A stretch of DNA of 64,000 bases from Hirudinaria manillensis. Lineage: Eukaryota > Annelida > Clitellata > Hirudinida > Hirudinidae. This document shows positions 7,330-44,623 of the stretch, in pieces. Every line of letters starts with the position of its first letter. Positions within the stretch are counted from its first letter, which is position 1. The notes under the pieces are model-generated. The model was not told the DNA's origin. It saw only the letters and a program-made list of their open reading frames with translations, and searched no databases. Position numbers and translations under genes: made by a program. The stretch is taken from positions 5,218,501 to 5,282,500 of the forward strand of contig CM067537.1 of assembly GCA_034509925.1 (NCBI GenBank). The letters run 5' to 3'.

Positions 7330-10300
7330 TTAAGGAAAATTTTGAGAAGAAATGGTGGATTCAGTGATTGTCGAATGGCTTGTTGATGTTCCTGTATCCG
7401 GTGATGTAGATGGAGCTGAGGTTATTGTGAAGGAAGTGGTCGACTGAGGAGAAACGGATGAACCGCTTGTTGTGGACGGAACGGACATCGTTGATTGGCT
7501 GGTGGATGTATCAGAATTGAAAGTTGTAGAAGGTCCTGATGTTACGCTAAATGAGGTTGTCGATTGAGGGGAAAAGGTAGATCCACTTGAGGTAACCGGA
7601 GATGACATGCTGGATTCAGTGATTGTCGAATGGCTTGTTGATGTTCCTGTATCCGGTGATGTAGATGGAGCTGAGGTTATTGTGAAGGAAGTGGTCGACT
7701 GAGGAGAAACGGATGAACCGCTTGTTGTGGACGGAACGGACATCGTTGATTGGCTGGTGGAAGTTTCAGAATTGAATGTTGTAGAAGGCCCTGATGTTAC
7801 GCTAAAGGAGGTTGTCGATTGAGGGGAAAAGGTCGATCCACTTGAGGTAACCGGAGATGACATGCTGGATTCAGTGATTGTCGAATGGCTAGTTGAAGTT
7901 GCTGTATCCGGTGATGTAGATGGAGCTGAGGTTATTGTGAAGGAAGTGGTCGACTGAGGAGAAACGGATGAACCGCTTGTTGTGTACGGATCGGACATCG
8001 TTGATTGGCTGGTGGAAGTTTCAGAATTGAATGTTGTAGAAGGTCCTGATGTTACGCTAAAGGAGGTTGTCGATTGAGGGGAAAAGGTCGATCCACTTGA
8101 GGTAACCGGAGATGACATGCTGGATTCAGTGATTGTCGAATGGCTTGTTGATGTTGCTGTATCCGGTGATGTAGATGGAGCTGAGGTTATTGTGAAGGAA
8201 GTGGTCGACTGAGGAGAAACGGATGAACCGCTTGTTGTGGACGGAACGGACATCGTTGATTGGCTGGTGGATGTATCAGAATTGAAAGTTGTAGAAGGTC
8301 CTGATGTTACGCTAAATGAGGTTGTCGATTGAGGGGAAAAGGTAGATCCACTTGAGGTAACCGGAGATGACATGCTGGATTCAGTGATTGTCGAATGGCT
8401 TGTTGATGTTCCTGTATCCGGTGATGTAGATGGAGCTGAGGTTATTGTGAAGGAAGTGGTCGACTGAGGAGAAACGGATGAACCGCTTGTTGTGGACGGA
8501 ACGGACATCGTTGATTGGCTGGTGGAAGTTTCAGAATTGAATGTTGTAGAAGGCCCTGATGTTACGCTAAAGGAGGTTGTCGATTGAGGGGAAAAGGTCG
8601 ATCCACTTGAGGTAACCGGAGATGACATGCTGGATTCAGTGATTGTCGAATGGCTAGTTGAAGTTGCTGTATCCGGTGATGTAGATGGAGCTGAGGTTAT
8701 TGTGAAGGAAGTGGTCGACTGAGGAGAAACGGATGAACCGCTTGTTGTGTACGGATCGGACATCGTTGATTGGCTGGTGGAAGTTTCAGAATTGAATGTT
8801 GTAGAAGGTCCTGATGTTACGCTAAAGGAGGTTGTCGATTGAGGGGAAAAGGTCGATCCACTTGAGGTAACCGGAGATGACATGCTGGATTCAGTGATTG
8901 TCGAATGGCTTGTTGAAGTTCCTGTATTCGGTGATGTAGATGGAGCTGAGGTTATTGTGAAGGAAGTGGTCGACTGAGGAGAAACGGATGAACCGCTTGT
9001 TGTGTACGGAACGGACATCGTTGATTGGCTGGTGGAAGTTTCAGAATTGAATGTTGTAGAAGGTCCTGATGTTACGCTAAAGGAGGTTGTCGATTGAGGG
9101 GAAAAGGTCGATCCACTTGAGGTAACCGGAGATGACATGCTGGATTCAGTGATTGTCGAATGGCTTGTTGATGTTGCTGTATCCGGTGATGTAGATGGAG
9201 CTGAGGTTATTGTGAAGGAAGTGGTCGACTGAGGAGAAACGGATGAACCGCTTGTTGTGGACGGAACGGACATCGTTGATTGGCTGGTGGAAGTTTCAGA
9301 ATTGAAAGTTGTAGAAGGTCCTGATGTTACGCTAAATGAGGTTGTCGAATGAGGGGAAAAGGTCGATCCACTTGAGGTAACCGGAGATGACATGCTGGAT
9401 TCAGTGATTGTCGAATGGCTAGTTGAAGTTGCTGTATCCGGTGATGTAGATGGAGCTGAGGTTATTGTGAAGGAAGTGGTCGACTGAGGAGAAACGGATG
9501 AACCGCTTGTTGTGTACGGATCGGACATCGTTGATTGGCTGGTGGAAGTTTCAGAATTGAATGTTGTAGAAGGTCCTGATGTTACGCTAAAGGAGGTTGT
9601 CGATTGAGGGGAAAAGGTCGATCCACTTGAGGTAACCGGAGATGACATGCTGGATTCAGTGATTGTCGAATGGCTTGTTGATGTTGCTGTATCCGGTGAT
9701 GTAGATGGAGCTGAGGTTATTGTGAAGGAAGTGGTCGACTGAGGAGAAACGGATGAACCGCTTGTTGTGGTCGGAACGGACATCGTTGATTGGCTGGTGG
9801 ATGTATCAGAATTGAAAGTTGTAGACTGTCCTGATGTTACGCTAAAGGAGGTTGTCGATTGAGGGGAAAAGGTCGATCCACTTGAGGTAACCGGAGATGA
9901 CATGCTGGATTCAGTGATTGTCGAATGGCTCGTTGAAGTTCCTGTATTCGGTGATGTAGATGGAGCTGAGGTTATTGTGAAGGAAGTGGTCGACTGAGGA
10001 GAAACGGATGAACCGCTTGTTGTGGACGGAACGGACATCGTTGATTGGCTGGTGGATGTATCAGAATTGAAAGTCGTAGACGGTCCTGATGTTACGCTAA
10101 ATGAGGTTGTCGATTGAGGGGAAAAGGTCGATCCACTTGAGGTAACCGGAGATGACATGCTGGATTCAGTGATTGTCGAATGGCTTGTTGATGTTCCTGT
10201 ATCCGGTGATGTAGATGGAGCTGAGGTTATTGTGAAGGAAGTGGTCGACTGAGGAGAAACGGATGAACCGCTTGTTTTGGACGGAACGGACATCGTTGAT

Positions 10301-13300
10301 TGGCTGGTGGAAGTTTCAGAATTGAATGTTGTAGAAGGTCCTGATGTTACGCTAAAGGAGGTTGTCGATTGTGGGGAAAAGGTCGATCCACTTGAGGTAA
10401 CCGGAGATGACATGCTGGATTCAGTGATTGTCGAATGGCTTGTTGATGTTCCTGTATTCGGTGATGTAGATGGAGCTGAGGTTATTGTGAAGGAAGTGGT
10501 CGACTGAGGAGAAACGGATGAACCGCTTGTTTTGGACGGAACGGACATCGTTGATTGGCTGGTGGAAGTTTCAGAATTGAATGTTGTAGAAGGTCCTGAT
10601 GTTACGCTAAAGGAGGTTGTCGATTGAGGGGAAAAGGTCGATCCACTTGAGGTAACCGGAGATGACATGCTGGATTCAGTGATTGTCGAATGGCTTGTTG
10701 ATGTTCCTGTATTCGGTGATGTAGATGGAGCTGAGGTTATTGTGAAGGAAGTGGTCGACTGAGGAGAAACGGATGAACCGCTTGTTGTGGACGGAACGGA
10801 CATCGTTGATTGGCTGGTGGATGTATCAGAATTGAAAGATGTAGACGGTCCTGATGTTACGCTAAAGGAGGTTGTCGATTGAGGGGAAAAGGTCGATCCA
10901 CTTGAGGTAACCGGAGATGACATGCTGGATTGAGTGGTTGTCGAATGGCTAGTTGAAGTTCCTGTATTCGGTGATGTAGATGGAGCTGAGGTTATTGTGA
11001 AGGAAGTGGTCGACTGAGGAGAAACGGATGAACCGCTTGTTGTGGACGGAACGGACATCGTTGATTGGCTGGTGGATGTATCAGAATTGAAAGTTGTAGA
11101 CGGTCCTGATGTTACGCTAAATGAGGTTGTCGATTGAGGGGAAAAGGTCGATCCACTTGAGGTAACCGGAGATGACATGCTGGATTCAGTGATTGTCGAA
11201 TGGCTTGTTGATGTTCCTGTATCCGGTGATGTAGATGGAGCTGAGGTTATTGTGAAGGAAGTGGTCGACTGAGGAGAAACGGATGAACCGCTTGTTGTGG
11301 ATGGAACGGACATCGTTGATTGGCTGGTGGATGTATCAGAATTGAATGTTGTAGAAGGTCCCGATGTTACGCTAAAGGAGGTTGTCGATTGAGGGGAAAA
11401 GGTCGATCCACTTGAGGTAACCGGAGATGACATGCTGGATTCAGTGATTGTCGAATGGCTTGTTGTTGTTGCTGTATCCGGTGATGTAGATGGAGCTGAG
11501 GTTATTGTGAAGGAAGTGGTCGACTGAGGAGAAACGGATGAACCGCTTGTTGTGGACGGAACGGACATCGTTGATTGGCTGGTGGAAGTTTCAGAATTGA
11601 AAGTTGTAGAAGGTCCTGATGTTACGCTAAATGAGGTTGTCGATTGAGGGGAAAAGGTCGATCCACTTGAGGTAACCGGAGATGACATGCTGGATTCAGT
11701 GATTGTCGAATGGCTTGTTGATGTTCCTGTATCCGGTGATGTAGATGGAGCTGAGGTTATTGTGAAGGAAGTGGTCGACTGAGGAGAAACGGATGAACCG
11801 CTTGTTGTGGACGAAACGGACATCGTTGATTGGCTGGTGGAAGTTTCAGAATTGAATGTTGTAGAAGGCCCTGATGTTACGCTAAAGGAGGTTGTCGATT
11901 GAGGGGAAAAGGTCGATCCACTTGTGGTAACCGGAGATGACATGCTGGATTCAGTGATTGTCGAATGGCTTGTTGATGTTCCTGTATCCGGTGATGTAGA
12001 TGGAGCTGAGGTTATTGTGAAGGAAGTGGTCGACTGAGGAGAAACGGATGAACCGCTTGTTGTGGACGGAACGGACATCGTTGATTGGCTGGTGGATGTA
12101 TCAGAATTGAAAGTTGTAGACGGTCCTGATGTTACGCTAAATGAGGTTGTCGATTGAGGGGAAAAGGTCGATCCACTTGTGGTAACCGGAGATGACATGC
12201 TGGATTCAGTGATTGTCGAATGGCTTGTTGATGTTCCTGTATCCGGTGATGTAGATGGAGCTGAGGTTATTGTGAAGGAAGTGGTCGACTGAGGAGAAAC
12301 GGATGAACCGCTTGTTGTGGACGGAACGGACATCGTTGATTGGCTGGTGGATGTATCAGAATTGAAAGTTGTAGACGGTCCTGATGTTACGCTAAAGGAG
12401 GTTGTCGATTGAGGGGAAAAGGTCGATCCACTTGAGGTAACCGGAGATGACATGCTGGATTCAGTGATTGTCGAATGGCTTGTTGATGTTGCTGTATCCG
12501 GTGATGTAAATGGAGCTGAGGTTATTGTGAAGGAAGTGGTCGACTGAGGAGAAACGGATGAACCGCTTGTTGTGGACGGAACGGACATCGTTGATTGGCT
12601 GGTGGAAGTTTCAGAATTGAAAGTTGTAGAAGGTCCTGATGTTACGCTAAATGAGGTTGTCGATTGAGGGGAAAAGGTCGATCCACTTGAGGTAACCGGA
12701 GATGACATGCTGGATTCAGTGATTGTCGAATGGCTTGTTGATGTTCCTGTATCCGGTGATGTAGATGGAGCTGAGGTTATTGTGAAGGAAGTGGTCGACT
12801 GAGGAGAAACGGATGAACCGCTTGTTGTGGACGGAACGGACATCGTTGATTGGCTGGTGGATGTATCAGAATTGAAAGTTGTAGACGGTCCTGATGTTAC
12901 GCTAAAGGAGGTTGTCGATTGAGGGGAAAAGGTCGATCCACTTGAGGTAACCGGAGATGACATGCTGGATTGAGTGGTTGTCGAATGGCTAGTTGAAGTT
13001 CCTGTATTCGGTGATGTAGATGGAGCTGAGGTTATTGTGAAGGAAGTGGTCGACTGAGGAGAAACGGATGAACCGCTTGTTGTGGACGGAACGGACATCG
13101 TTGATTGGCTGGTGGATGTATCAGAATTGAAAGTTGTAGACGGTCCTGATGGTACGCTAAAGGAGGTTGTCGATTGAGGGGAAAAGGTCGATCCACTTGA
13201 GGTAACCGGAGATGACATGCTGGATTCAGTGATTGTCGAATGGCTAGTTGAAGTTCCTGTATTCGGTGATGTAGATGGAGCTGAGGTTATTGTGAAGGAA

Positions 13301-16300
13301 GTGGTCGACTGAGGAGAAACGGATGAACCGCTTGTTGTGGACGGAACGGACATCGTTGATTGGCTGGTGGAAGTTTCAGAATTGAAAGTTGTAGAAGGTC
13401 CTGATGTTACGCTAAATGAGGTTGTCGATTGAGGGGAAAAGGTCGATCCACTTGAGGTAACCGGAGATGACATGCTGGATTCAGTGATTGTCGAATGGCT
13501 TGTTGATGTTCCTGTATCCGGTGATGTAGATCGAGCTGAGGTTATTGTGAAGGAAGTGGTCGACTGAGGAGAAACGGATGAACCGCTTGTTGTGGATGGA
13601 ACGGACATCGTTGATTGGCTGGTGGATGTATCAGAATTGAATGTTGTAGAAGGTCCTGATGTTACGCTAAAGGAGGTTGTCGATTGAGGGGAAAAGGTCG
13701 ATCCACTTGAGGTAACCGGAGATGACATGCTGGATTCAGTGATTGTCGAATGGCTTGTTGATGTTGCTGTATCCGGTGATGTAGATGGAGCTGAGGTTAT
13801 TGTGAAGGAAGTGGTCGACTGAGGAGAAACGGATGAACCGCTTGTTGTGGACGGAACGGACATCGTTGATTGGCTGGTGGAAGTTTCAGAATTGAAAGTT
13901 GTAGAAGGTCCTGATGTTACGCTAAATGAGGTTGTCGATTGAGGGGAAAAGGTCGATCCACTTGAGGTAACCGGAGATGACATGCTGGATTCAGTGATTG
14001 TCGAATGGCTTGTTGATGTTCCTGTATCCGGTGATGTAGATGGAGCTGAGGTTATTGTGAAGGAAGTGGTCGACTGAGGAGAAACGGATGAACCGCTTGT
14101 TGTGGACGGAACGGACATCGTTGATTGGCTGGTGGATGTATCAGAATTGAAAGTTGTAGACGGTCCTGATGTTACGCTAAAGGAGGTTGTCGATTGAGGG
14201 GAAAAGGTCGATCCACTTGAGGTAACCGGAGATGACATGCTGGATTCAGTGATTGTCGAATGGCTTGTTGATGTTCCTGTATCCGGTGATGTAGATGGAG
14301 CTGAGGTTATTGTGAAGGAAGTGGTCGACTGAGGAGAAACGGATGAACCGCTTGTTGTGGACGGAACGGACATCGTTGATTGGCTGGTGGATGTATCAGA
14401 ATTGAAAGTTGTAGACGGTCCTGATGTTACGCTAAATGAGGTTGTCGATTGAGGGGAAAAGGTCGATCCACTTGTGGTAACCGGAGATGACATGCTGGAT
14501 TCAGTGATTGTCGAATGGCTTGTTGATGTTCCTGTATCCGGTGATGTAGATGGAGCTGAGGTTATTGTGAAGGAAGTGGTCGACTGAGGAGAAACGGATG
14601 AACCGCTTGTTGTGGATGGAACGGACATCGTTGATTGGCTGGTGGATGTATCAGAATTGAATGTTGTAGAAGGTCCTGATGTTACGCTAAAGGAGGTTGT
14701 CGATTGAGGGGAAAAGGTCGATCCACTTGAGGTAACCGGAGATGACATGCTGGATTCAGTGATTGTCGAATGGCTTGTTGATGTTCCTGTATCCGGTGAT
14801 GTAGATGGAGCTGAGGTTATTGTGAAGGAAGTGGTCGACTGAGGAGAAACGGATGAACCGCTTGTTGTGGACGGAACGGACATCGTTGATTGGCTGGTGG
14901 ATGTATCAGAATTGAAAGTTGTAGACGGTCCTGATGTTACGCTAAATGAGGTTGTCGATTGAGGGGAAAAGGTCGATCCACTTGTGGTAACCGGAGATGA
15001 CATGCTGGATTCAGTGATTGTCGAATGGCTTGTTGATGTTCCTGTATCCGGTGATGTAGATGGAGCTGAGGTTATTGTGAAGGAAGTGGTCGACTGAGGA
15101 GAAACGGATGAACCGCTTGTTGTGGATGGAACGGACATCGTTGATTGGCTGGTGGATGTATCAGAATTGAATGTTGTAGAAGGTCCTGATGTTACGCTAA
15201 AGGAGGTTGTCGATTGAGGGGAAAAGGTCGATCCACTTGAGGTAACCGGAGATGACATGCTGGATTCAGTGATTGTCGAATGGCTTGTTGATGTTGCTGT
15301 ATCCGGTGATGTAGATGGAGCTGAGGTTATTGTGAAGGAAGTGGTCGACTGAGGAGAAACGGATGAACCGCTTGTTGTGGACGGAACGGACATCGTTGAT
15401 TGGCTGGTGGATGTATCAGAATTGAAAGTTGTAGACGGTCCTGATGTTACGCTAAAGGAGGTTGTCGATTGAGGGGAAAAGGTCGATCCACTTGAGGTAA
15501 CCGGAGATGACATGCTGGATTCAGTGATTGTCGTATGGCTTGTTGATGTTCCTGTATCCGGTGATGTAGATGGAGCTGAGGTTATTGTGAAGGAAGTGGT
15601 CGACTGAGGAGAAACGGATGAACCGCTTGTTGTGGATGGAACGGACATCGTTGATTGGCTGGTGGATGTATCAGAATTGAATGTTGTAGAAGGTCCTGAT
15701 GTTACGCTAAAGGAGGTTGTCGATTGAGGGGAAAAGGTCGATCCACTTGAGGTAACCGGAGATGACATGCTGGATTCAGTGATTGTCGAATGGCTTGTTG
15801 ATGTTGCTGTATCCGGTGATGTAGATGGAGCTGAGGTTATTGTGAAGGAAGTGGTCGATTGAGGAGAAACGGATGAACCGCTTGTTGTGGATGGAACGGA
15901 CATCGTTGATTGGCTGGTGGATGTATCAGAATTGAATGTTGTAGAAGGTCCTGATGTTACGCTAAAGGAGGTTGTCGATTGAGGGGAAAAGGTCGATCCA
16001 CTTGAGGTAACCGGAGATGACATGCTGGATTCAGTGATTGTCGAATGGCTTGTTGATGTTGCTGTATCCGGTGATGTAGATGGAGCTGAGGTTATTGTGA
16101 AGGAAGTGGTCGACTGAGGAGAAACGGATGAACCGCTTGTTGTGGACGGAACGGACATCGTTGATTGGCTGGTGGATGTATCAGAATTGAAAGTTGTAGA
16201 CGGTCCTGATGTTACGCTAAAGGAGGTTGTCGATTGAGGGGAAAAGGTCGATCCACTTGAGGTAACCGGAGATGACATGCTGGATTCAGTGATTGTCGTA

Positions 16301-19300
16301 TGGCTTGTTGATGTTCCTGTATCCGGTGATGTAGATGGAGCTGAGGTTATTGTGAAGGAAGTGGTCGACTGAGGAGAAACGGATGAACCGCTTGTTGTGG
16401 ATGGAACGGACATCGTTGATTGGCTGGTGGATGTATCAGAATTGAATGTTGTAGAAGGTCCTGATGTTACGCTAAAGGAGGTTGTCGATTGAGGGGAAAA
16501 GGTCGATCCACTTGAGGTAACCGGAGATGACATGCTGGATTCAGTGATTGTCGAATGGCTTGTTGATGTTGCTGTATCCGGTGATGTAGATGGAGCTGAG
16601 GTTATTGTGAAGGAAGTGGTCGATTGAGGAGAAACGGATGAACCGCTTGTTGTGGACGGAACGGACATCGTTGATTGGCTGGTGGAAGTTTCAGAATTGA
16701 AAGTTGTAGAAGGTCCTGATGTTACGCTAAATGAGGTTGTCGATTGAGGGGAAAAGGTCGATCCACTTGAGGTAACCGGAGATGACATGCTGGATTCAGT
16801 GATTGTCGAATGGCTTGTTGATGTTCCTGTATCCGGTGATGTAGATGGAGCTGAGGTTATTGTGAAGGAAGTGGTCGACTGAGGAGAAACGGATGAACCG
16901 CTTGTTGTGGACGGAACGGACATCGTTGATTGGCTGGTGGATGTATCAGAATTGAAAGTTGTAGACGGTCCTGATGTTACGCTAAAGGAGGTTGTCGATT
17001 GAGGGGAAAAGGTCGATCCACTTGAGGTAACCGGAGATGACATGTTGGATTCAGTGATTGTCGAATGGCTAGTTGAAGTTCCTGTATTCGGTGATGTAGA
17101 TGGAGCTGAGGTTATTGTGAAGGAAGTGGTCGACTGAGGAGAAACGGATGAACCGCTTGTTGTGGACGGAACGGACATCGTTGATTGGCTGGTGGAAGTT
17201 TCAGAATTGAAAGTTGTAGAAGGTCCTGATGTTACGCTAAATGAGGTTGTCGATTGAGGGGAAAAGGTCGATCCACTTGAGGTAACCGGAGATGACATGC
17301 TGGATTCAGTGATTGTCGAATGGCTTGTTGATGTTCCTGTATCCGGTGATGTAGATGGAGCTGAGGTTATTGTGAAGGAAGTGGTCGACTGAGGAGAAAC
17401 GGATGAACCGCTTGTTGTGGACGGAACGGACATCGTTGATTGGCTGGTGGATGTATCAGAATTGAATGATGTAGACGGTCCTGATGTTACGTTAAAGGAG
17501 GTTGTCGATTGAGGGGAAAAGGTCGATCCACTTGAGGTAACCGGAGATGACATGCTGGATTCAGTGATTGTCGAATGGCTTGTTGATGTTCCTGTATCCG
17601 GTGATGTAGATGGAGCTGAGGTTATTGTGAAGGAAGTGGTCGACTGAGGAGAAACGGATGAACCGCTTGTTGTGGACGGAACGGACATCGTTGATTGGCT
17701 GGTGGATGTATCAGAATTGAAAGTTGTAGACGGTCCTGATGTTACGCTAAAGGAGGTTGTCGATTGAGGGGAAAAGGTCGATCCACTTGAGGTAACCGGA
17801 GATGACATGCTGGATTGAGTGGTTGTCGAATGGCTAGTTGAAGTTCCTGTATTCGGTGATGTAGATGGAGCTGAGGTTATTGTGAAGGAAGTGGTCGACT
17901 GAGGAGAAACGGATGAACCGCTTGTTGTGGACGGAACGGACATCGTTGATTGGCTGGTGGATGTATCAGAATTGAAAGTTGTAGACGGTCCTGATGTTAC
18001 GCTAAAGGAGGTTGTCGATTGAGGGGAAAAGGTCGATCCACTTGAGGTAACCGGAGATGACATGCTGGATTGAGTGGTTGTCGAATGGCTAGTTGAAGTT
18101 CCTGTATTCGGTGATGTAGATGGAGTTGAGGTTATTGTGAAGGAAGTGGTCGACTGAGGAGAAACGGATGAACCGCTTGTTGTGGACGGAACGGACATCG
18201 TTGATTGGCTGGTGGAAGTTTCAGAATTGAAAGTTGTAGAAGGTCCTGATGTTACGCTAAATGAGGTTGTCGATTGAGGGGAAAAGGTCGATCCACTTGA
18301 GGTAACCGGAGATGACATGCTGGATTCAGTGATTGTCGAATGGCTTGTTGATGTTCCTGTATCCGGTGATGTAGATGGAGCTGAGGTTATTGTGAAGGAA
18401 GTGGTCGACTGAGGAGAAACGGATGAACCGCTTGTTGTGGACGGAACGGACATCGTTGATTGGCTGGTGGATGTATCAGAATTGAAAGTTGTAGACGGTC
18501 CTGATGTTACGCTAAAGGAGGTTGTCGATTGAGGGGAAAAGGTCGATCCACTTGAGGTAACCGGAGATGACATGCTGGATTCAGTGATTGTCGAATGGCT
18601 TGTTGATGTTCCTGTATCCGGTGATGTAGATGGAGCTGACGTTATTGTGAAGGAAGTGGTCGACTGAGGAGAAACGGATGAACCGCTTGTTGTGGACGGA
18701 ACGGACATCGTTGATTGGCTGGTGGATGTATCAGAATTGAAAGTTGTAGACGGTCCTGATGTTACGCTAAAGGAGGTTGTCGATTGAGGGGAAAAGGTCG
18801 ATCCACTTGAGGTAACCGGAGATGACATGCTGGATTGAGTGGTTGTCGAATGGCTAGTTGAAGTTCCTGTATTCGGTGATGTAGATGGAGCTGAGGTTAT
18901 TGTGAAGGAAGTGGTCGACTGAGGAGAAACGGATGAACCGCTTGTTGTGGACGGAACGGACATCGTTGATTGGCTGGTGGATGTATCAGAATTGAAAGTT
19001 GTAGACGGTCCTGATGTTACGCTAAAGGAGGTTGTCGATTGAGGGGAAAAGGTCGATCCACTTGAGGTAACCGGAGATGACATGCTGGATTGAGTGGTTG
19101 TCGAATGGCTAGTTGAAGTTCCTGTATTCGGTGATGTAGATGGAGTTGAGGTTATTGTGAAGGAAGTGGTCGACTGAGGAGAAACGGATGAACCGCTTGT
19201 TGTGGACGGAACGGACATCGTTGATTGGCTGGTGGAAGTTTCAGAATTGAAAGTTGTAGAAGGTCCTGATGTTACGCTAAATGAGGTTGTCGATTGAGGG

Positions 19301-31300: not shown

Positions 31301-34300
31301 CTTGAGGTAACCGGAGATGACATGCTGGATTGAGTGATTGTCGAATGGCTTGTTGATGTTGCTGTATCCGGTGATGTAGATGGAGCTGAGGTTATTGTGA
31401 AGGAAGTGGTCGACTGAGGAGAAACGGATGAACCGCTTGTTGTGGACGGAACGGACATCGTTGATTGGCTGGTGGAAGTTTCAGAATTGAAAGTTGTAGA
31501 AGGTCCTGATGTTACGCTAAATGAGGTTGTCGATTGAGGGGAAAAGGTCGATCCACTTGAGGTAACCGGAGATGACATGCTGGATTCAGTGATTGTCGAA
31601 TGGCTTGTTGATGTTGCTGTATCCGGTGATGTAGATGGAGCTGAGGTTATTGTGAAGGAAGTGGTCGACTGAGGAGAAACGGATGAACCGCTTGTTGTGG
31701 ACGGAACGGACATCGTTGATTGGCTGGTGGATGTATCAGAATTGAATGTTGTAGAAGGTCCTGATGTTACTCTAAAGGAGGTTGTCGATTGAGGGGAAAA
31801 GGTCGATCCACTTGAGGTAACCGGAGATGACATGCTGGATTCAGTGATTGTCGAATGGCTTGTTGAAGTTCCTGTATTCGGTGATGTAGATGGAGCTGAG
31901 GTTATTGTGTCGGAAGTGGTCGACTGAGGAGAAACGGATGAACCGCTTGTTGTGGACGGAACGGACATCGTTGATTGGCTGGTGGATGTATCAGAATTGA
32001 AAGTTGTAGACGGTCCTGATGTTACGCTAAATGAGGTTGTCGATTGAGGGGAATGGGTCGATCCACTTGAGTTAACCGGAGATGACATGCTGGATTGAGT
32101 GATTGTCGAATGGCTTGTTGATGTTGCTGTATCCGGTGATGTAGATGGAGCTGAGGTTATTGTGAAGGAAGTGGTCGACTGAGGAGAAACGGATGAACCG
32201 CTTGTTGTGGACGGAACGGACATCGTTGATTGGCTGGTGGATGTATCAGAATTGAATGTTGTAGAAGGTCCTGATGTTACTCTAAAGGAGGTTGTCGATT
32301 GAGGGGAAAAGGTCGATCCACTTGAGGTAACCGGAGATGACATGCTGGATTCAGTGATTGTCGAATGGCTTGTTGATGTTGCTGTATCCGGTGATGTAGA
32401 TGGAGCTGAGGTTATTGTGAAGGAAGTGGTCGACTGAGGAGAAACGGATGAACCGCTTGTTGTGGACGGAACGGACATCGTTGATTGGCTGGTGGATGTA
32501 TCAGAATTGAATGTTGTAGAAGGTCCTGATGTTACTCTAAAGGAGGTTGTCGATTGAGGGGAAAAGGTCGATCCACTTGAGGTAACCGGAGATGACATGC
32601 TGGATTCAGTGATTGTCGAATGGCTTGTTGAAGTTCCTGTATTCGGTGATGTAGATGGAGCTGAGGTTATTGTGTAGGAAGTGGTCGACTGAGGAGAAAC
32701 GGATGAACCGCTTGTTGTGGACGGAACGGACATCGTTGATTGGCTGGTGGATGTATCAGAATTGAAAGTTGTAGACGGTCCTGATGTTACGCTAAAGGAG
32801 GTTGTCGATTGAGGGGAAAAGGTCGATCCACTTGAGGTAACCGGAGATGACATGCTGGATTCAGTGATTGTCGAATGGCTTGTTGATGTTGCTGTATCCG
32901 GTGATGTAGATGGAGCTGAGGTTATTGTGAAGGAAGTGGTCGACTGAGGAGAAACGGATGAACCGCTTGTTGTGGACGGAACGGACATCGTTGATTGGCT
33001 GGTGGAAGTTTCAGAATTGAAAGTTGTAGAAGGTCCTGATGTTACGCTAAATGAGGTTGTCGATTGAGGGGAAAAGGTCGATCCACTTGAGGTAACCGGA
33101 GATGACATGCTGGATTCAGTGATTGTCGAATGGCTTGTTGATGTTCCTGTATCCGGTGATGTAGATGGAGCTGAGGTTATTGTGAAGGAAGTGGTCGACT
33201 GAGGAGAAACGGATGAACCGCTTGTTGTGGACGGAACGGACATCGTTGATTGGCTGGTGGAAGTTTCAGAATTGAAAGTTGTAGAAGGTCCTGATGTTAC
33301 GCTAAATGAGGTTGTCGATTGAGGGGAAAAGGTCGATCCACTTGAGGTAACCGGAGATGACATGCTGGATTGAGTGGTTGGCGAATGGCTAGTTGAAGTT
33401 CCTGTATTCGGTGATGTAGATGGAGCTGAGGTTATTGTGAAGGAAGTGGTCGACTGAGGAGAAACGGATGAACCGCTTGTTGTGGACGGAACGGACATCG
33501 TTGATTGGCTGGTGGATGTATCAGAATTGAAAGTTGTAGACGGTCCTGATGTTACGCTAAAGGAGGTTGTCGATTGAGGGGAAAAGGTCGATCCACTTGA
33601 GGTAACCGGAGATGACATGCTGGATTCAGTGATTGTCGAATGGCTTGTTGAAGTTCCTGTATTCGGTGATGTAGATGGAGCTGAGGTTATTGTGTAGGAA
33701 GTGGTCGACTGAGGAGAAACGGATGAACCGCTTGTTGTGGACGGAACGGACATCGTTGATTGGCTGGTGGATGTATCAGAATTGAAAGTTGTAGACGGTC
33801 CTGATGTTACGCTAAAGGAGGTTGTCGATTGAGGGGAAAAGGTCGATCCACTTGAGGTAACCGGAGATGACATGCTGGATTCAGTGATTGTCGAATGGCT
33901 TGTTGATGTTGCTGTATCCGGTGATGTAGATGGAGCTGAGGTTATTGTGAAGGAAGTGGTCGACTGAGGAGAAACGGATGAACCGCTTGTTGTGGACGGA
34001 ACGGACATCGTTGATTGGCTGGTGGAAGTTTCAGAATTGAAAGTTGTAGAAGGTCCTGATGTTACGCTAAATGAGGTTGTCGATTGAGGGGAAAAGGTCG
34101 ATCCACTTGAGGTAACCGGAGATGACATGCTGGATTCAGTGATTGTCGAATGGCTTGTTGATGTTCCTGTATCCGGTGATGTAGATGGAGCTGAGGTTAT
34201 TGTGAAGGAAGTGGTCGACTGAGGAGAAACGGATGAACCGCTTGTTGTGGACGGAACGGACATCGTTGATTGGCTGGTGGAAGTTTCAGAATTGAAAGTT

Positions 34301-37300
34301 GTAGAAGGTCCTGATGTTACGCTAAATGAGGTTGTCGATTGAGGGGAAAAGGTCGATCCACTTGAGGTAACCGGAGATGACATGCTGGATTGAGTGGTTG
34401 GCGAATGGCTAGTTGAAGTTCCTGTATTCGGTGATGTAGATGGAGCTGAGGTTATTGTGAAGGAAGTGGTCGACTGAGGAGAAACGGATGAACCGCTTGT
34501 TGTGGACGGAACGGACATCGTTGATTGGCTGGTGGATGTATCAGAATTGAAAGTTGTAGACGGTCCTGATGTTACGCTAAAGGAGGTTGTCGATTGAGGG
34601 GAAAAGGTCGATCCACTTGAGGTAACCGGAGATGACATGCTGGATTGAGTGATTGTCGAATGGCTTGTTGATGTTCCTGTATCCGGTGATGTAGATGGAG
34701 CTGAGGTTATTGTGAAGGAAGTGGTCGACTGAGGAGAAACGGATGAACCGCTTGTTGTGGACGGAACGGACATCGTTGATTGGCTGGTGGAAGTTTCAGA
34801 ATTGAAAGTTGTAGAAGGTCCTGATGTTACGCTAAATGAGGTTGTCGATTGAGGGGAAAAGGTCGATCCACTTGAGGTAACCGGAGATGACATGCTGGAT
34901 TGAGTGGTTGTCGAATGGCTAGTTGAAGTTCCTGTATTCGGTGATGTAGATGGAGCTGAGGTTATTGTGAAGGAAGTGGTCGACTGAGGAGAAACGGATG
35001 AACCGCTTGTTGTGGACGGAACGGACATCGTTGATTGGCTGGTGGATGTATCAGAATTGAAAGTTGTAGACGGTCCTGATGTTACGCTAAATGAGGTTGT
35101 CGATTGAGGGGAATGGGTCGATCCACTTGAGTTAACCGGAGATGACATGCTGGATTGAGTGATTGTCGAATGGCTTGTTGATGTTGCTGTATCCGGTGAT
35201 GTAGATGGAGCTGAGGTTATTGTGAAGGAAGTGGTCGACTGAGGAGAAACGGATGAACCGCTTGTTGTGGATGGAACGGACATCGTTGATTGGCTGGTGG
35301 AAGTTTCAGAATTGAATGTTGTAGAAGGTCCTGATGTTACTCTAAAGGAGGTTGTCGATTGAGGGGAAAAGGTCGATCCACTTGAGGTAACCGGAGATGA
35401 CATGCTGGATTCAGTGATTGTCGAATGGCTTGTTGAAGTTCCTGTATTCGGTGATGTAGATGGAGCTGAGGTTATTGTGTAGGAAGTGGTCGACTGAGGA
35501 GAAACGGATGAACCGCTTGTTGTGGACGGAACGGACATCGTTGATTGGCTGGTGGATGTATCAGAATTGAAAGTTGTAGACGGTCCTGATGTTACGCTAA
35601 AGGAGGTTGTCGATTGAGGGGAAAAGGTCGATCCACTTGAGGTAACCGGAGATGACATGCTGGATTCAGTGATTGTCGAATGGCTTGTTGATGTTGCTGT
35701 ATCCGGTGATGTAGATGGAGCTGAGGTTATTGTGAAGGAAGTGGTCGACTGAGGAGAAACGGATGAACCGCTTGTTGTGGACGGAACGGACATCGTTGAT
35801 TGGCTGGTGGAAGTTTCAGAATTGAAAGTTGTAGAAGGTCCTGATGTTACGCTAAATGAGGTTGTCGATTGAGGGGAAAAGGTCGATCCACTTGAGGTAA
35901 CCGGAGATGACATGCTGGATTGAGTGGTTGGCGAATGGCTAGTTGAAGTTCCTGTATTCGGTGATGTAGATGGAGCTGAGGTTATTGTGAAGGAAGTGGT
36001 CGACTGAGGAGAAACGGATGAACCGCTTGTTGTGGACGGAACGGACATCGTTGATTGGCTGGTGGATGTATCAGAATTGAAAGTTGTAGACGGTCCTGAT
36101 GTTACGCTAAAGGAGGTTGTCGATTGAGGGGAAAAGGTCGATCCACTTGAGGTAACCGGAGATGACATGCTGGATTCAGTGATTGTCGAATGGCTTGTTG
36201 ATGTTCCTGTATCCGGTGATGTAGATGGAGCTGAGGTTATTGTGAAGGAAGTGGTCGACTGAGGAGAAACGGATGAACCGCTTGTTGTGGACGGAACGGA
36301 CATCGTTGATTGGCTGGTGGAAGTTTCAGAATTGAAAGTTGTAGAAGGTCCTGATGTTACGCTAAATGAGGTTGTCGATTGAGGGGAAAAGGTCGATCCA
36401 CTTGAGGTAACCGGAGATGACATGCTGGATTGAGTGGTTGTCGAATGGCTAGTTGAAGTTCCTGTATTCGGTGATGTAGATGGAGCTGAGGTTATTGTGA
36501 AGGAAGTGGTCGACTGAGGAGAAACGGATGAACCGCTTGTTGTGGACGGAACGGACATCGTTGATTGGCTGGTGGAAGTTTCAGAATTGAATGTTGTAGA
36601 AGGTCCTGATGTTACGCTAAAGGAGGTTGTCGATTGAGGGGAAAAGGTCGATCCACTTGAGGTAACCGGAGATGACATGCTGGATTCAGTGATTGTCGAA
36701 TGGCTTGTTGATGTTGCTGTATCCGGTGATGTAGATGGAGCTGAGGTTATTGTGAAGGAAGTGGTCGACTGAGGAGAAACGGATGAACCGCTTGTTGTGG
36801 ACGGAACGGACATCGTTGATTGGCTGGTGGATGTATCAGAATTGAAAGTTGTAGACGGTCCTGATGTTACGCTAAATGAGGTTGTCGATTGAGGGGAATG
36901 GGTCGATCCACTTGAGTTAACCGGAGATGACATGCTGGATTGAGTGATTGTCGAATGGCTTGTTGATGTTGCTGTATCCGGTGATGTAGATGGAGCTGAG
37001 GTTATTGTGAAGGAAGTGGTCGACTGAGGAGAAACGGATGAACCGCTTGTTGTGGACGGAACGGACATCGTTGATTGGCTGGTGGAAGTTTCAGAATTGA
37101 ATGTTGTAGAAGGTCCTGATGTTACGCTAAAGGAGGTTGTCGATTGAGGGGAAAAGGTCGATCCACTTGAGGTAACCGGAGATGACATGCTGGATTCAGT
37201 GATTGTCGAATGGCTTGTTGATGTTGCTGTATCCGGTGATGTAGATGGAGCTGAGGTTATTGTGAAGGAAGTGGTCGACTGAGGAGAAACGGATGAACCG

Positions 37301-40300
37301 CTTGTTGTGGACGGAACGGACATCGTTGATTGGCTGGTGGATGTATCAGAATTGAAAGTTGTAGACGGTCCTGATGTTACGCTAAATGAGGTTGTCGATT
37401 GAGGGGAATGGGTCGATCCACTTGAGTTAACCGGAGATGACATGCTGGATTGAGTGATTGTCGAATGGCTTGTTGATGTTGCTGTATCCGGTGATGTAGA
37501 TGGAGCTGAGGTTATTGTGAAGGAAGTGGTCGACTGAGGAGAAACGGATGAACCGCTTGTTGTGGATGGAACGGACATCGTTGATTGGCTGGTGGAAGTT
37601 TCAGAATTGAATGTTGTAGAAGGTCCTGATGTTACTCTAAAGGAGGTTGTCGATTGAGGGGAAAAGGTCGATCCACTTGAGGTAACCGGAGATGACATGC
37701 TGGATTCAGTGATTGTCGAATGGCTTGTTGAAGTTCCTGTATTCGGTGATGTAGATGGAGCTGAGGTTATTGTGTAGGAAGTGGTCGACTGAGGAGAAAC
37801 GGATGAACCGCTTGTTGTGGACGGAACGGACATCGTTGATTGGCTGGTGGATGTATCAGAATTGAAAGTTGTAGACGGTCCTGATGTTACGCTAAAGGAG
37901 GTTGTCGATTGAGGGGAAAAGGTCGATCCACTTGAGGTAACCGGAGATGACATGCTGGATTCAGTGATTGTCGAATGGCTTGTTGATGTTGCTGTATCCG
38001 GTGATGTAGATGGAGCTGAGGTTATTGTGAAGGAAGTGGTCGACTGAGGAGAAACGGATGAACCGCTTGTTGTGGACGGAACGGACATCGTTGATTGGCT
38101 GGTGGAAGTTTCAGAATTGAAAGTTGTAGAAGGTCCTGATGTTACGCTAAATGAGGTTGTCGATTGAGGGGAAAAGGTCGATCCACTTGAGGTAACCGGA
38201 GATGACATGCTGGATTGAGTGGTTGGCGAATGGCTAGTTGAAGTTCCTGTATTCGGTGATGTAGATGGAGCTGAGGTTATTGTGAAGGAAGTGGTCGACT
38301 GAGGAGAAACGGATGAACCGCTTGTTGTGGACGGAACGGACATCGTTGATTGGCTGGTGGATGTATCAGAATTGAAAGTTGTAGACGGTCCTGATGTTAC
38401 GCTAAAGGAGGTTGTCGATTGAGGGGAAAAGGTCGATCCACTTGAGGTAACCGGAGATGACATGCTGGATTCAGTGATTGTCGAATGGCTTGTTGATGTT
38501 CCTGTATCCGGTGATGTAGATGGAGCTGAGGTTATTGTGAAGGAAGTGGTCGACTGAGGAGAAACGGATGAACCGCTTGTTGTGGACGGAACGGACATCG
38601 TTGATTGGCTGGTGGAAGTTTCAGAATTGAAAGTTGTAGAAGGTCCTGATGTTACGCTAAATGAGGTTGTCGATTGAGGGGAAAAGGTCGATCCACTTGA
38701 GGTAACCGGAGATGACATGCTGGATTGAGTGGTTGTCGAATGGCTAGTTGAAGTTCCTGTATTCGGTGATGTAGATGGAGCTGAGGTTATTGTGAAGGAA
38801 GTGGTCGACTGAGGAGAAACGGATGAACCGCTTGTTGTGGACGGAACGGACATCGTTGATTGGCTGGTGGAAGTTTCAGAATTGAATGTTGTAGAAGGTC
38901 CTGATGTTACGCTAAAGGAGGTTGTCGATTGAGGGGAAAAAGGTCGATCCACTTGAGGTAACCGGAGATGACATGCTGGATTCAGTGATTGTCGAATGGC
39001 TTGTTGATGTTGCTGTATCCGGTGATGTAGATGGAGCTGAGGTTATTGTGAAGGAAGTGGTCGACTGAGGAGAAACGGATGAACCGCTTGTTGTGGACGG
39101 AACGGACATCGTTGATTGGCTGGTGGATGTATCAGAATTGAAAGTTGTAGACGGTCCTGATGTTACGCTAAATGAGGTTGTCGATTGAGGGGAATGGGTC
39201 GATCCACTTGAGTTAACCGGAGATGACATGCTGGATTGAGTGATTGTCGAATGGCTTGTTGATGTTGCTGTATCCGGTGATGTAGATGGAGCTGAGGTTA
39301 TTGTGAAGGAAGTGGTCGACTGAGGAGAAACGGATGAACCGCTTGTTGTGGACGGAACGGACATCGTTGATTGGCTGGTGGAAGTTTCAGAATTGAATGT
39401 TGTAGAAGGTCCTGATGTTACGCTAAAGGAGGTTGTCGATTGAGGGGAAAAGGTCGATCCACTTGAGGTAACCGGAGATGACATGCTGGATTCAGTGATT
39501 GTCGAATGGCTTGTTGATGTTGCTGTATCCGGTGATGTAGATGGAGCTGAGGTTATTGTGAAGGAAGTGGTCGACTGAGGAGAAACGGATGAACCGCTTG
39601 TTGTGGACGGAACGGACATCGTTGATTGGCTGGTGGATGTATCAGAATTGAAAGTTGTAGACGGTCCTGATGTTACGCTAAATGAGGTTGTCGATTGAGG
39701 GGAATGGGTCGATCCACTTGAGTTAACCGGAGATGACATGCTGGATTGAGTGATTGTCGAATGGCTTGTTGATGTTGCTGTATCCGGTGATGTAGATGGA
39801 GCTGAGGTTATTGTGAAGGAAGTGGTCGACTGAGGAGAAACGGATGAACCGCTTGTTGTGGACGGAACGGACATCGTTGATTGGCTGGTGGATGTATCAG
39901 AATTGAAAGTTGTAGACGGTCCTGATGTTACGCTAAATGAGGTTGTCGATTGAGGGGAATGGGTCGATCCACTTGAGTTAACCGGAGATGACATGCTGGA
40001 TTGAGTGATTGTCGAATGGCTTGTTGATGTTGCTGTATCCGGTGATGTAGATGGAGCTGAGGTTATTGTGAAGGAAGTGGTCGACTGAGGAGAAACGGAT
40101 GAACCGCTTGTTGTGGATGGAACGGACATCGTTGATTGGCTGGTGGAAGTTTCAGAATTGAATGTTGTAGAAGGTCCTGATGTTACTCTAAAGGAGGTTG
40201 TCGATTGAGGGGAAAAGGTCGATCCACTTGAGGTAACCGGAGATGACATGCTGGATTCAGTGATTGTCGAATGGCTTGTTGAAGTTCCTGTATTCGGTGA

Positions 40301-43300
40301 TGTAGATGGAGCTGAGGTTATTGTGAAGGAAGTGGTCGACTGAGGAGAAACGGATGAACCGCTTGTTGTGGACGGAACGGACATCGTTGATTGGCTGGTG
40401 GAAGTTTCAGAATTGAAAGTTGTAGAAGGTCCTGATGTTACGCTAAATGAGGTTGTCGATTGAGGGGAAAAGGTCGATCCACTTGAGGTAACCGGAGATG
40501 ACATACTGGATTCAGTGATTGTCGAATGGCTTGTTGAAGTTCCTGTATTCGGTGATGTAGATGGAGCTGAGGTTATTGTGAAGGAAGTGGTCGACTGAGG
40601 AGAAACGGATGAACCGCTTGTTGTGGACGGAACGGACATCGTTGATTGGCTGGTGGAAGTTTCAGAATTGAAAGTTGTAGAAGGTCCTGATGTTACGCTA
40701 AATGAGGTTGTCGATTGAGGGGAAAAGGTCGATCCACTTGAGGTAACCGGAGATGACATACTGGATTCAGTGATTGTCGAATGGCTTGTTGAAGTTCCTG
40801 TATTCGGTGATGTAGATGGAGCTGAGGTTATTGTGAAGGAAGTGGTCGACTGAGGAGAAACGGATGAACCGCTTGTTGTGGACGGAACGGACATCGTTGA
40901 TTGGCTGGTGGAAGTTTCAGAATTGAAAGTTGTAGAAGGTCCTGATGTTACGCTAAATGAGGTTGTCGATTGAGGGGAAAAGGTCGATCCACTTGAGGTA
41001 ACCGGAGATGACATACTGGATTCAGTGATTGTCGAATGGCTTGTTGAAGTTCCTGTATTCGGTGATGTAGATGGAGCTGAGGTTATTGTGAAGGAAGTGG
41101 TCGACTGAGGAGAAACGGATGAACCGCTTGTTGTGGACGGAACGGACATCGTTGATTGGCTGGTGGAAGTTTCAGAATTGAAAGTTGTAGAAGGTCCTGA
41201 TGTTACGCTAAATGAGGTTGTCGATTGAGGGGAAAAGGTCGATCCACTTGAGGTAACCGGAGATGACATGCTGGATTCAGTGATTGTCGAATGGCTTGTT
41301 GATGTTGCTGTATCCGGTGATGTAGATGGAGCTGAGGTTATTGTGAAGGAAGTGGTCGACTGAGGAGAAACGGATGAACCGCTTGTTGTGGACGGAACGG
41401 ACATCGTTGATTGGCTGGTGGATGTATCAGAATTGAAAGTTGTAGACGGTCCTGATGTTACGCTAAAGGAGGTTGTCGATTGAGGGGAAAAGGTCGATCC
41501 ACTTGAGGTAACCGGAGATGACATGCTGGATTCAGTGATTATCGAATGGCTTGTTGAAGTTCCTGTATTCGGTGATGTAGATGGAGCTGAGGTTATTGTG
41601 TAGGAAGTGGTCGACTGAGGAGAAACGGATGAACCGCTTGTTGTGGACGGAACGGACATCGTTGATTGGCTGGTGGATGTATCAGAATTGAAAGTTGTAG
41701 ACGGTCCTGATGTTACGCTAAATGAGGTTGTCGATTGAGGGGAATGGGTCGATCCACTTGAGGTAACCGGAGATGACATGCTGGATTCAGTGATTGTCGA
41801 ATGGCTTGTTGATGTTGCTGTATCCGGTGATGTAGATGGAGCTGAGGTTATTGTGAAGGAAGTGGTCGACTGAGGAGAAACGGATGAACCGCTTGTTGTG
41901 GACGGAACGGACATCGTTGATTGGCTGGTGGATGTATCAGAATTGAAAGTTGTAGACGGTCCTGATGTTACGCTAAATGAGGTTGTCGATTGAGGGGAAT
42001 GGGTCGATCCACTTGAGGTAACCGGAGATGACATGCTGGATTCAGTGATTGTCGAATGGCTAGTTGAAGTTCCTGTATTCGGTGATGTAGATGGAGCTGA
42101 GGTTATTGTGAAGGAAGTGGTCGACTGAGGAGAAACGGATGAACCGCTTGTTGTGGACGGAACGGACATCGTTGATTGGCTGGTGGAAGTTTCAGAATTG
42201 AAAGTTGTAGAAGGTCCTGATGTTACGCTAAATGAGGTTGTCGATTGAGGGGAAAAGGTCGATCCACTTGAGGTAACCGGAGATGACATACTGGATTCAG
42301 TGATTGTCGAATGGCTTGTTGAAGTTCCTGTATTCGGTGATGTAGATGGAGCTGAGGTTATTGTGAAGGAAGTGGTCGACTGAGGAGAAACGGATGAACC
42401 GCTTGTTGTGGACGGAACGGACATCGTTGATTGGCTGGTGGAAGTTTCAGAATTGAAAGTTGTAGAAGGTCCTGATGTTACGCTAAATGAGGTTGTCGAT
42501 TGAGGGGAAAAGGTCGATCCACTTGAGGTAACCGGAGATGACATACTGGATTCAGTGATTGTCGAATGGCTTGTTGAAGTTCCTGTATTCGGTGATGTAG
42601 ATGGAGCTGAGGTTATTGTGAAGGAAGTGGTCGACTGAGGAGAAACGGATGAACCGCTTGTTGTGGACGGAACGGACATCGTTGATTGGCTGGTGGAAGT
42701 TTCAGAATTGAAAGTTGTAGAAGGTCCTGATGTTACGCTAAATGAGGTTGTCGATTGAGGGGAAAAGGTCGATCCACTTGAGGTAACCGGAGATGACATG
42801 CTGGATTCAGTGATTGTCGAATGGCTTGTTGATGTTGCTGTATCCGGTGATGTAGATGGAGCTGAGGTTATTGTGAAGGAAGTGGTCGACTGAGGAGAAA
42901 CGGATGAACCGCTTGTTGTGGACGGAACGGACATCGTTGATTGGCTGGTGGATGTATCAGAATTGAAAGTTGTAGACGGTCCTGATGTTACGCTAAAGGA
43001 GGTTGTCGATTGAGGGGAAAAGGTCGATCCACTTGAGGTAACCGGAGATGACATGCTGGATTCAGTGATTATCGAATGGCTTGTTGAAGTTCCTGTATTC
43101 GGTGATGTAGATGGAGCTGAGGTTATTGTGTAGGAAGTGGTCGACTGAGGAGAAACGGATGAACCGCTTGTTGTGGACGGAACGGACATCGTTGATTGGC
43201 TGGTGGATGTATCAGAATTGAAAGTTGTAGACGGTCCTGATGTTACGCTAAATGAGGTTGTCGATTGAGGGGAATGGGTCGATCCACTTGAGGTAACCGG

Positions 43301-44623
43301 AGATGACATGCTGGATTCAGTGATTGTCGAATGGCTTGTTGATGTTGCTGTATCCGGTGATGTAGATGGAGCTGAGGTTATTGTGAAGGAAGTGGTCGAC
43401 TGAGGAGAAAACGGATGAACCGCTTGTTGTGGACGGAACGGACATCGTTGATTGGCTGGTGGATGTATCAGAATTGAAAGTTGTAGACGGTCCTGATGTT
43501 ACGCTAAATGAGGTTGTCGATTGAGGGGAATGGGTCGATCCACTTGAGGTAACCGGAGATGACATGCTGGATTCAGTGATTGTCGAATGGCTTGTTGATG
43601 TTGCTGTATCCGGTGATGTAGATGGAGCTGAGGTTATTGTGAAGGAAGTGGTCGACTGAGGAGAAACGGATGAACCGCTTGTTGTGGACGGAACGGACAT
43701 CGTTGATTGGCTGGTGGATGTATCAGAATTGAAAGTTGTAGACGGTCCTGATGTTACGCTAAATGAGGTTGTCGATTGAGGGGAATGGGTCGATCCACTT
43801 GAGTTAACCGGAGATGACATGCTGGATTGAGTGATTGTCGAATGGCTTGTTGATGTTGCTGTATCCGGTGATGTAGATGGAGCTGAGGTTATTGTGAAGG
43901 AAGTGGTCGACTGAGGAGAAACGGATGAACCGCTTGTTGTGGACGGAACGGACATCGTTGATTGGCTGGTGGATGTATCAGAATTGAAAGTTGTAGACGG
44001 TCCTGATGTTACGCTAAATGAGGTTGTCGATTGAGGGGAATGGGTCGATCCACTTGAGTTAACCGGAGATGACATGCTGGATTGAGTGATTGTCGAATGG
44101 CTTGTTGATGTTGCTGTATCCGGTGATGTAGATGGAGCTGAGGTTATTGTGAAGGAAGTGGTCGACTGAGTTGAAACGGATGAACCGCTTGTTGTGGACG
44201 GAACGGACATCGTTGATTGGCTGGTGGATGTATCAGAATTGAAAGTTGTAGACGGTCCTGATGTTACGCTAAATGAGGTTGTCGATTGAGGGGAATAGGT
44301 CGATCCACTTGAGGTAACCGGAGATGACATGCTGGATTCAGTGATTGTCGAATGGCTTGTTGATGTTGCTGTATCCGGTGATGTAGATGGAGCTGAGGTT
44401 ATTGTGATGGAAGTGGTCGACTGAGTAGAAACGGATGAACCGCTTGTTGTGGATGGAACAGATAACGTTGAGTGGCTGATGGATGTTGTAGAAGTGATTA
44501 AGTCTCCTGTCGTAATATTTAATGTTGCTGTGGAATCTATATCAGAATTAGTTGCAAGTGCATTCGACGTTGAATTCGCTCCTTCAATCGATAGCGCTGT
44601 CGGATTTGATGTTGTTTTAATGC
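7330..44623 (-). CDS. Single family-A exon of about 37.3 kb
   Basis: The exon starts at 44623 after an ACTTTCCCAG acceptor, entered in phase 1 (Gly codon completed from the linker exon). It opens with about 45 unique residues (start IKTTSNPTALSIEGANSTSN, then two further sequons), passes into degenerate family-A units, and ends at TAA 7330-7332. It is open throughout except for extra A residues in the runs at 43408-43411 and 38937-38941. If those are consensus errors it is one continuous exon of about 12,430 codons. No internal splice signal is needed to keep it open. The last unit diverges after ITES into TISSQNFP, so the stop belongs to unique sequence at the array edge and not to a mutated repeat. 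Confidence 0.8.

Follow-up and report, generated by a model that had tools for sequence, protein, structure and literature searches.

A predicted giant mucin gene of the annelid Hirudinaria manillensis, probably ending in a 37-kb coding exon of serine/threonine-rich repeats

Is a minus-strand reading frame that stays open over 37 kb of tandem repeats, apart from two single-base insertions, one coding exon, and if so, of what kind of gene? The question is raised by a stretch of 64,000 nt from Hirudinaria manillensis (here called the window; C12:5218501-5282500 of a 148.4-Mb assembly in 23 contigs), in which a first-pass annotation had noted such a frame, running from an acceptor at 44623 to a TAA at 7330, and about 145 serine/threonine (Ser/Thr) repeats within it. 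We propose that this repeat array (array A) is probably the last coding exon of one giant predicted mucin gene on the minus strand, the upstream part of which was read in the flanking sequence; positions there are also given in window numbering. The features at the downstream end of the predicted gene are as follows:

7330..44623, minus strand: terminal coding exon, number 146 of the model, 37,294 nt, with the acceptor at 44624 and the stop codon TAA at 7330-7332
7344..44486, minus strand: array A, 145.7 units of 255 bp (85 amino acids, aa)
43408..43411, minus strand: first insertion site, a T run lengthened from 3 to 4, which breaks the assembled frame (precise position from a count by eye)
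38937..38941, minus strand: second insertion site, a T run lengthened from 4 to 5, which breaks the assembled frame (precise position from a count by eye)
44624..44701, minus strand: last predicted intron, 78 nt, CAG/GTATGT ... ctttcccag/G

The frame and the repeat number noted at first pass were both borne out. Tandem Repeats Finder returned 145.7 copies of the 255-bp unit with 97% matches and 0% indels. Minus-strand frames are open at 7330-39042 (10,570 aa), 38912-43498 (1528 aa) and 43317-44639 (440 aa), and they overlap because the frame changes twice. Following the register of the array with 140 anchor matches gave 133 spacings of 255 bp, two of 256 bp, two of 510 bp and two of 765 bp (the spacings of 510 and 765 reflect an anchor mutated in between), and the two spacings of 256 bp thus point to a +1 insertion in each of two units, which begin at 43430 and 39094. 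Over the array there are 304 to 1177 stop codons in each of the other five frames versus 49 in the main frame, and all of these 49 lie outside an open stretch of 10,566 codons, in sequence shifted out of frame by the insertions. Neither a stop variant nor a deletion was found in 145 units. The consensus unit translates as TTSGSSVSPQSTTSFTITSAPSTSPDTGTSTSHSTITESSMSSPVTSSGSTFSPQSTTSFSVTSGPSTTFNSDTSTSQSTMSVPS, and the 10,556 residues behind the second insertion contain 62% Ser+Thr, 874 Pro, a single Cys, only 19 Lys and Arg taken together, and about 0.11 N-x-S/T sequons per unit. There are 69 distinct sequences among the 143 full-length units, and identical pairs are most frequent at lag 6 (14 of 136) and lag 4 (13 of 137), a pattern that suggests growth by block duplication. 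The unit has no scored match elsewhere in the genome (147 of 147 matches fall at C12:5225839-5262950), and a sequence search of the PDB with a 340-aa piece of the array found no relative.

The acceptor of the terminal exon (...ctttcccag/G at 44624/44623) scores 4.3 and the donor CAG/GTATGT at 44701, 78 nt upstream, scores 6.1; all splice sites were scored with a generic metazoan matrix. Within the 255-bp unit the best donor-like site reaches only -0.9, versus 4.3 for the donor of a second array described below (array B) and 4.5, 4.7, 5.3 and 6.1 for four donors at the array edges; the best acceptor-like site per unit scores 3.3, and the edge acceptors score 3.7 to 7.3. Because the 145 units contain no good donor, no stop variant and no deletion, the best reading of the genomic sequence is that array A forms a single coding exon of 37,294 nt. 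Splicing within the array at weak or non-canonical sites, which would leave a mature mRNA with far fewer repeats, seems to us very unlikely. Every unit does carry the acceptor-like site TCCGTTTCTCCTCAG/T, whose score of 3.3 is close to that of some edge acceptors (3.7-4.3), and the pyrimidine run of this site holds one of the two insertions; however, the donors of the unit all score -0.9 or less, and the 145 units lack the stop variants and deletions that mark the intron part of array B. The single coding exon of about 37 kb proposed at first pass, Ser/Thr-rich and of more than 12,000 residues, entered by an acceptor and lacking a good internal donor, is therefore supported in silico, with the correction that the predicted gene is larger and merely ends with this exon. 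If transcribed as modelled, the exon would to our knowledge rank among the longest coding exons so far predicted in animals.

The remainder of the predicted gene lies upstream and is dominated by array B, which consists of 360-bp units on the same minus strand at about 45.2-95.6 kb, mostly beyond the window. From the 5' end of the gene, the features are:

97028-96839, minus strand: exon 1, 190 nt from the inferred ATG, ending in phase 1
96248-96060, minus strand: exon 2, 189 nt
95919-95773, minus strand: exon 3, 147 nt
95620-95474, minus strand: exon 4, 147 nt
after 95474 and down to 45386, minus strand: 140 B exons, 132 of them 219 nt long
45386..64000, minus strand: the part of array B inside the window, in which 52 of the 140 predicted B exons start; the array runs on to about 95.6 kb
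44816..45385, minus strand: predicted intron of 570 nt, including AT-rich sequence and degenerate B-unit remnants starting at 45106 and 45244
44702..44815, minus strand: exon 145, 114 nt, phase 1 at both ends, resembling the start of a B exon (by eye)

A typical B unit comprises a 219-nt exon ending in ACAACAG and a 141-nt GT-AG intron (GTACGACG...TTATTTCAG); each part has a length divisible by three, and each junction is in phase 1. Among 126 full-length units, where GT and AG were not demanded, both belong to the 81 of 141 intron columns that never vary; in the exon, 151 of 219 columns are invariant. Length changes in the exon part are in frame (72, 66 and 18 nt), and those in the intron part are out of frame (2 and 5 nt, deletions found in five units, as groups of three and two). 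In-frame stops occur in 27 of the 139 B introns examined versus 3 of the 140 B exons, and of the three stop-bearing exons two have their stop behind a +1 insertion and one has it in a scrambled patch. Array B as one long exon was ruled out, since the intron stops and the out-of-frame deletions all sit in the part bounded by GT...AG. The scrambled patch, of about 30 bases with many mismatches (approximately 59020-59047, in the exon of the unit starting at 59142), resembles a local error of assembly or a short conversion tract. Plus-strand frames are also open over array B, for example at 45307-52947 and on to about 95.7 kb, with up to 3735 aa, 6-8% Ser/Thr and an acidic character by eye; on these grounds we rejected them as genes, and we take them to mirror the mucin frame on the antisense strand.

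As assembled, the predicted gene has 146 exons, reads from 97028 to 7330 on the minus strand, and comprises 68,444 coding nt, that is 22,813 codons plus five single-base insertions, or about 22,800 residues. All 145 predicted introns are GT-AG, 134 of them being 141 nt long, and 141 of the 144 internal exons are multiples of three (the other three are 220 nt). The small exons together encode 10,238 residues with 53% Ser+Thr and 957 N-x-S/T sequons. The exon-intron structure is best seen in the diverged units at both array edges, and the acceptor of exon 145, at 7.3, is the best of the set. The first exon encodes MSDIQDWKTGIQEIAGVRHKRIIVRTLWYRRKRTHARFLAFLCFCCGIGFSGSIVMVLSVERA, in which the hydrophobic stretch AFLCFCCGIGFSGSIVMVL stands behind a basic stretch (hydropathy maximum 2.2, mean over 19 residues); the basic cluster ahead of this stretch and the few charges after it would fit a type II anchor. 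When the first exon and exon 2 were searched against the genome, the only other matches had E values of 1.7 and 6.6. Poly(A)-like signals are located at 5923, 5877 and 5858.

Exon 145 bears on the question whether array A might be coding but form another gene, one that starts by itself near 44.6-45.1 kb, with array B either decayed or a separate array. The sequence at 44.8-45.3 kb is AT-rich and carries partly degenerate, stop-bearing unit remnants, and an unspliced reading of array B meets stops in 27 of 139 introns, both as such a division would have it. Yet exon 145 has good splice sites on either side (acceptor 7.3, donor 6.1) and phase 1 at both ends, the acceptor of array A is in the matching phase, and the predicted splicing of array B leaves 136 of its 140 exons without a break. 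We consider separate genes rather unlikely.

A more general doubt is whether the locus codes at all, or is a pseudogene or once-coding expanded minisatellite in which the frame is open by inheritance through recent unit duplication and not by selection. The 97% likeness of the A units means that frame openness is partly inherited, and the synonymous excess is weak in both arrays. The 63 distinct substitutions in 143 full-length A units comprise 22 synonymous (of 211 possible) and 41 nonsynonymous ones (of 527 possible; P = 0.25), and none of the 27 possible changes to a stop codon. In the B exons, counted without the spurious edge unit at 45106, 27 of 182 possible synonymous, 51 of 448 nonsynonymous and 1 of 18 stop-making variants were found, versus 19 of 113, 48 of 282 and 4 of 25 in the B introns (16-17% each, looking as without coding constraint); taken singly the contrasts are not significant (nonsynonymous versus synonymous P = 0.23 in exons and 1.0 in introns; stops in introns versus exons P = 0.38). 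The assembled coding model moreover carries six frame breaks, two insertions in array A and, in the B exons, three +1 insertions and one stop.

Against a pseudogene, each of these six breaks is confined to one unit, whereas disabling changes in the B introns were copied on: three of the four stop-making intron variants are realised as stops, and stop codons occur at two intron places in 15 and 8 of the 126 full-length units. Distinct stop or out-of-frame-deletion events number five in introns (three realised stop alleles and two deletions) versus one in all coding sequence, introns making up 23% of codons (binomial P = 0.003, rising to 0.035 when the six single-base insertions are included; the grouping was set after the data were seen). 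In addition, the 768 nonconsensus cells of array A are distributed over codon positions 1, 2 and 3 as 165, 143 and 460. We regard a pseudogene as quite improbable.

Several points nonetheless weigh against a single functional gene ending in array A. The six breaks would be disabling if real, and the sign of purifying selection on the A unit is weak, falling short of significance at the P value given above. Since the B introns were copied from each other, the 145 GT-AG introns are not independent, and only about six edge introns are; besides, the GT of the B donors was built into the search pattern (the site is present in 140 of 140 units) and the edge exons were chosen by hand. The start codon is inferred, and the gene may have a further exon upstream. 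Copy numbers depend on how two near-identical arrays, 37 and 50 kb long, were assembled, and the reading as a whole draws on the genomic sequence of one assembly. As for the breaks, those outside array A affect 4 of the 145 small exons. Besides the two single-base duplications in T runs of array A, array B has four, of which three fall in exons and the fourth in an intron; since these duplications are scattered regardless of coding, assembly error is a fair guess for them.

If the predicted mucin gene is expressed as modelled, transcription would yield a pre-mRNA of about 90 kb from which some 145 introns are removed, and translation a protein of about 22,800 residues, more than half of them Ser or Thr. 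O-glycosylation of the part encoded by array A, and O- and N-glycosylation of that encoded by array B, might stiffen the product into a very long extended rod, with the N-terminal hydrophobic stretch serving as a type II membrane-mucin tether or as a signal. Such a protein could act as a surface coat, or be a component of mucus, cocoon or adhesive. Unequal exchange of units may both enlarge and homogenise the two arrays. Since the A unit has a length divisible by three and each B unit pairs a symmetric phase-1 exon with its intron, changes in copy number would keep the frame.

Where did the B intron come from? Read in the frame of the exon, the consensus 141-nt intron gives GTTSNSTDASTHTLNGTSSEISTFPNTETSSSGSSTTANSYITIIIS, with 53% Ser+Thr, a value reached by none of 2000 dinucleotide shuffles (mean 21%), and two sequons versus a shuffle mean of 0.6. 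The other two frames contain stops and only 7% and 2% Ser+Thr. That the exon frame is open says little alone, as 533 of the 2000 shuffles are open too. By composition, the B intron is mucin-coding sequence. Either a coding stretch turned into an intron, which later multiplied along with the unit, or the stretch is still kept in some transcripts. At the outer array edges an ordinary AT-rich intron occupies the same place, so that the change between exon and intron could have run either way. As a tentative proposal, to which we give somewhat less than an even chance, one gene would contain two mucin arrays that grew separately and are built in opposite ways, one being a 37-kb exon without introns and the other a series of units whose intron was born once from a mucin-coding stretch and multiplied about 140-fold. 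These introns would be exitron-like, open and mucin-like in most units, so that the stalk could be lengthened or shortened by retaining or removing them, with stops forcing splicing in about one fifth of the units.

Around the predicted gene, no Rfam family at gathering score and no tRNA were found in the window. At about 3300-5700 on the minus strand there are short exons that by eye read like those of a coiled-coil protein, perhaps the next gene, which seems to start at about 5700. Also downstream of the mucin gene, Pfam matches identify a rhodopsin-type G-protein-coupled receptor exon (L011:2012-4432, plus strand) and a protein-kinase open frame (L011:5979-7319, minus strand). About 9 kb upstream of the predicted mucin start lies a retroelement with reverse transcriptase, RNase H and integrase domains (L005:2275-4665, minus strand; 106275-108665 in window numbering), which we take to be of Ty3 type, and an adjoining open frame extends to 111381. 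Elsewhere in the assembly, a COX1 match at C9:3026446-3027786 has a score equal to that on the mitochondrial contig (C23), and reflects either a recent transfer of mitochondrial DNA into the nucleus or a join made in assembly. The mitochondrial contig itself has the order COX1-N-COX2-D-G-Y-COX3-Q-ND6-CYTB, a stretch of N, ... L-S-A-L-ND1-I-K-ND3-ND2 (names by eye), which is the annelid arrangement, and COX1 reads well in code 5 and looks leech-like as a protein. Antistasin-domain matches number at least 63 in the genome, and none was found in 14 control genomes, of which those named are prokaryotes; this fits a leech or another annelid without proving it. Neither PF00379 nor PF01060 matched in the genome, a weak sign against an arthropod or nematode, since the 14 controls gave no match either.

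By its long Ser/Thr-rich tandem repeats (62% Ser+Thr in array A and 53% in the small exons), the predicted product looks like a very large mucin-type glycoprotein, dense O-glycosylation being predicted from composition. Gel-forming mucins of the MUC2/5/6/19 type have VWD/C8/TIL or cystine-knot domains and Cys-rich ends; no Pfam family of this or any other kind was found in the pieces scanned (the first exon, 680 aa of array A and 400 aa of array B), and only one Cys is present in 10,556 residues of array A. Nor were the features of MUC16-type mucins seen: SEA was not found in the pieces scanned, and the model ends a few residues past array A, the stop standing directly behind the array with no C-terminal anchor. 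Among the literature matches listed, no title deals with an array A/B mucin gene or with one gene pairing a giant intronless array with an exon-intron array. The gene would be a very large member of an already known kind, its size alone not being new. If it is transcribed as modelled, a MUC16-sized protein comes from an animal genome of about 148 Mb, and intronless and intron-punctuated arrays adjoin in one predicted transcript. This would raise the questions of how about 140 near-identical introns are removed in order, how the splicing machinery passes a 37-kb exon, and whether introns of repeat genes can arise from coding repeats and then spread by unit duplication.

Among known giants, the Balbiani ring proteins are salivary secretory proteins with cysteine-containing repeats and conserved Cys and end regions, and in their genes the repeat block is a single exon. 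The A unit, which is rich in Ser/Thr and nearly Cys-free, differs from their repeats in this respect, and the two are likened by description, not by sequence. The Chironomus tentans genes BR1, BR2.1, BR2.2 and BR6 are about 40 kb long with four introns and a tandem-repeat central coding region (PMC4192438; PMC8583845), a centre that was not recovered in the draft assembly (PMC4192438); in size and in this centre they are the nearest precedent for the array A exon. In BR3, another member of this family, there are 38 introns and the repeats have diverged (PMC4192438), so that few-intron and intron-punctuated forms exist there as separate genes and here, by prediction, within one. The coding sequence of the spider gene AgSp1 comprises 42,270 bp, contains tandem repeats and is divided between two exons of similar size, and its product is O-glycosylated and compared with mucins by the authors (PMC6553539). 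Taken as a record, the exon length noted at first pass is too strong a claim, the Balbiani ring genes being in the same size class and AgSp1 having a coding sequence of the length just given. AgSp1 resembles the present gene in having a large tandem-repeat coding sequence, glycosylated there and predicted to be so here, and differs in having about 21 kb per exon (by division), 17.8% Ser+Thr in the repeat versus 62%, and conserved spidroin ends. Human MUC16, of 22,097 residues (PMC2650410), has a very large extracellular part and a tandem-repeat domain whose single repeats are each encoded by five exons (PMC3431878). MUC16 is like the predicted protein in size and in joining a very large block to a tandem-repeat block interrupted by introns, and unlike it in carrying SEA domains in the repeats, followed by a transmembrane domain and a cytosolic tail, and in the reversed order of the two blocks.

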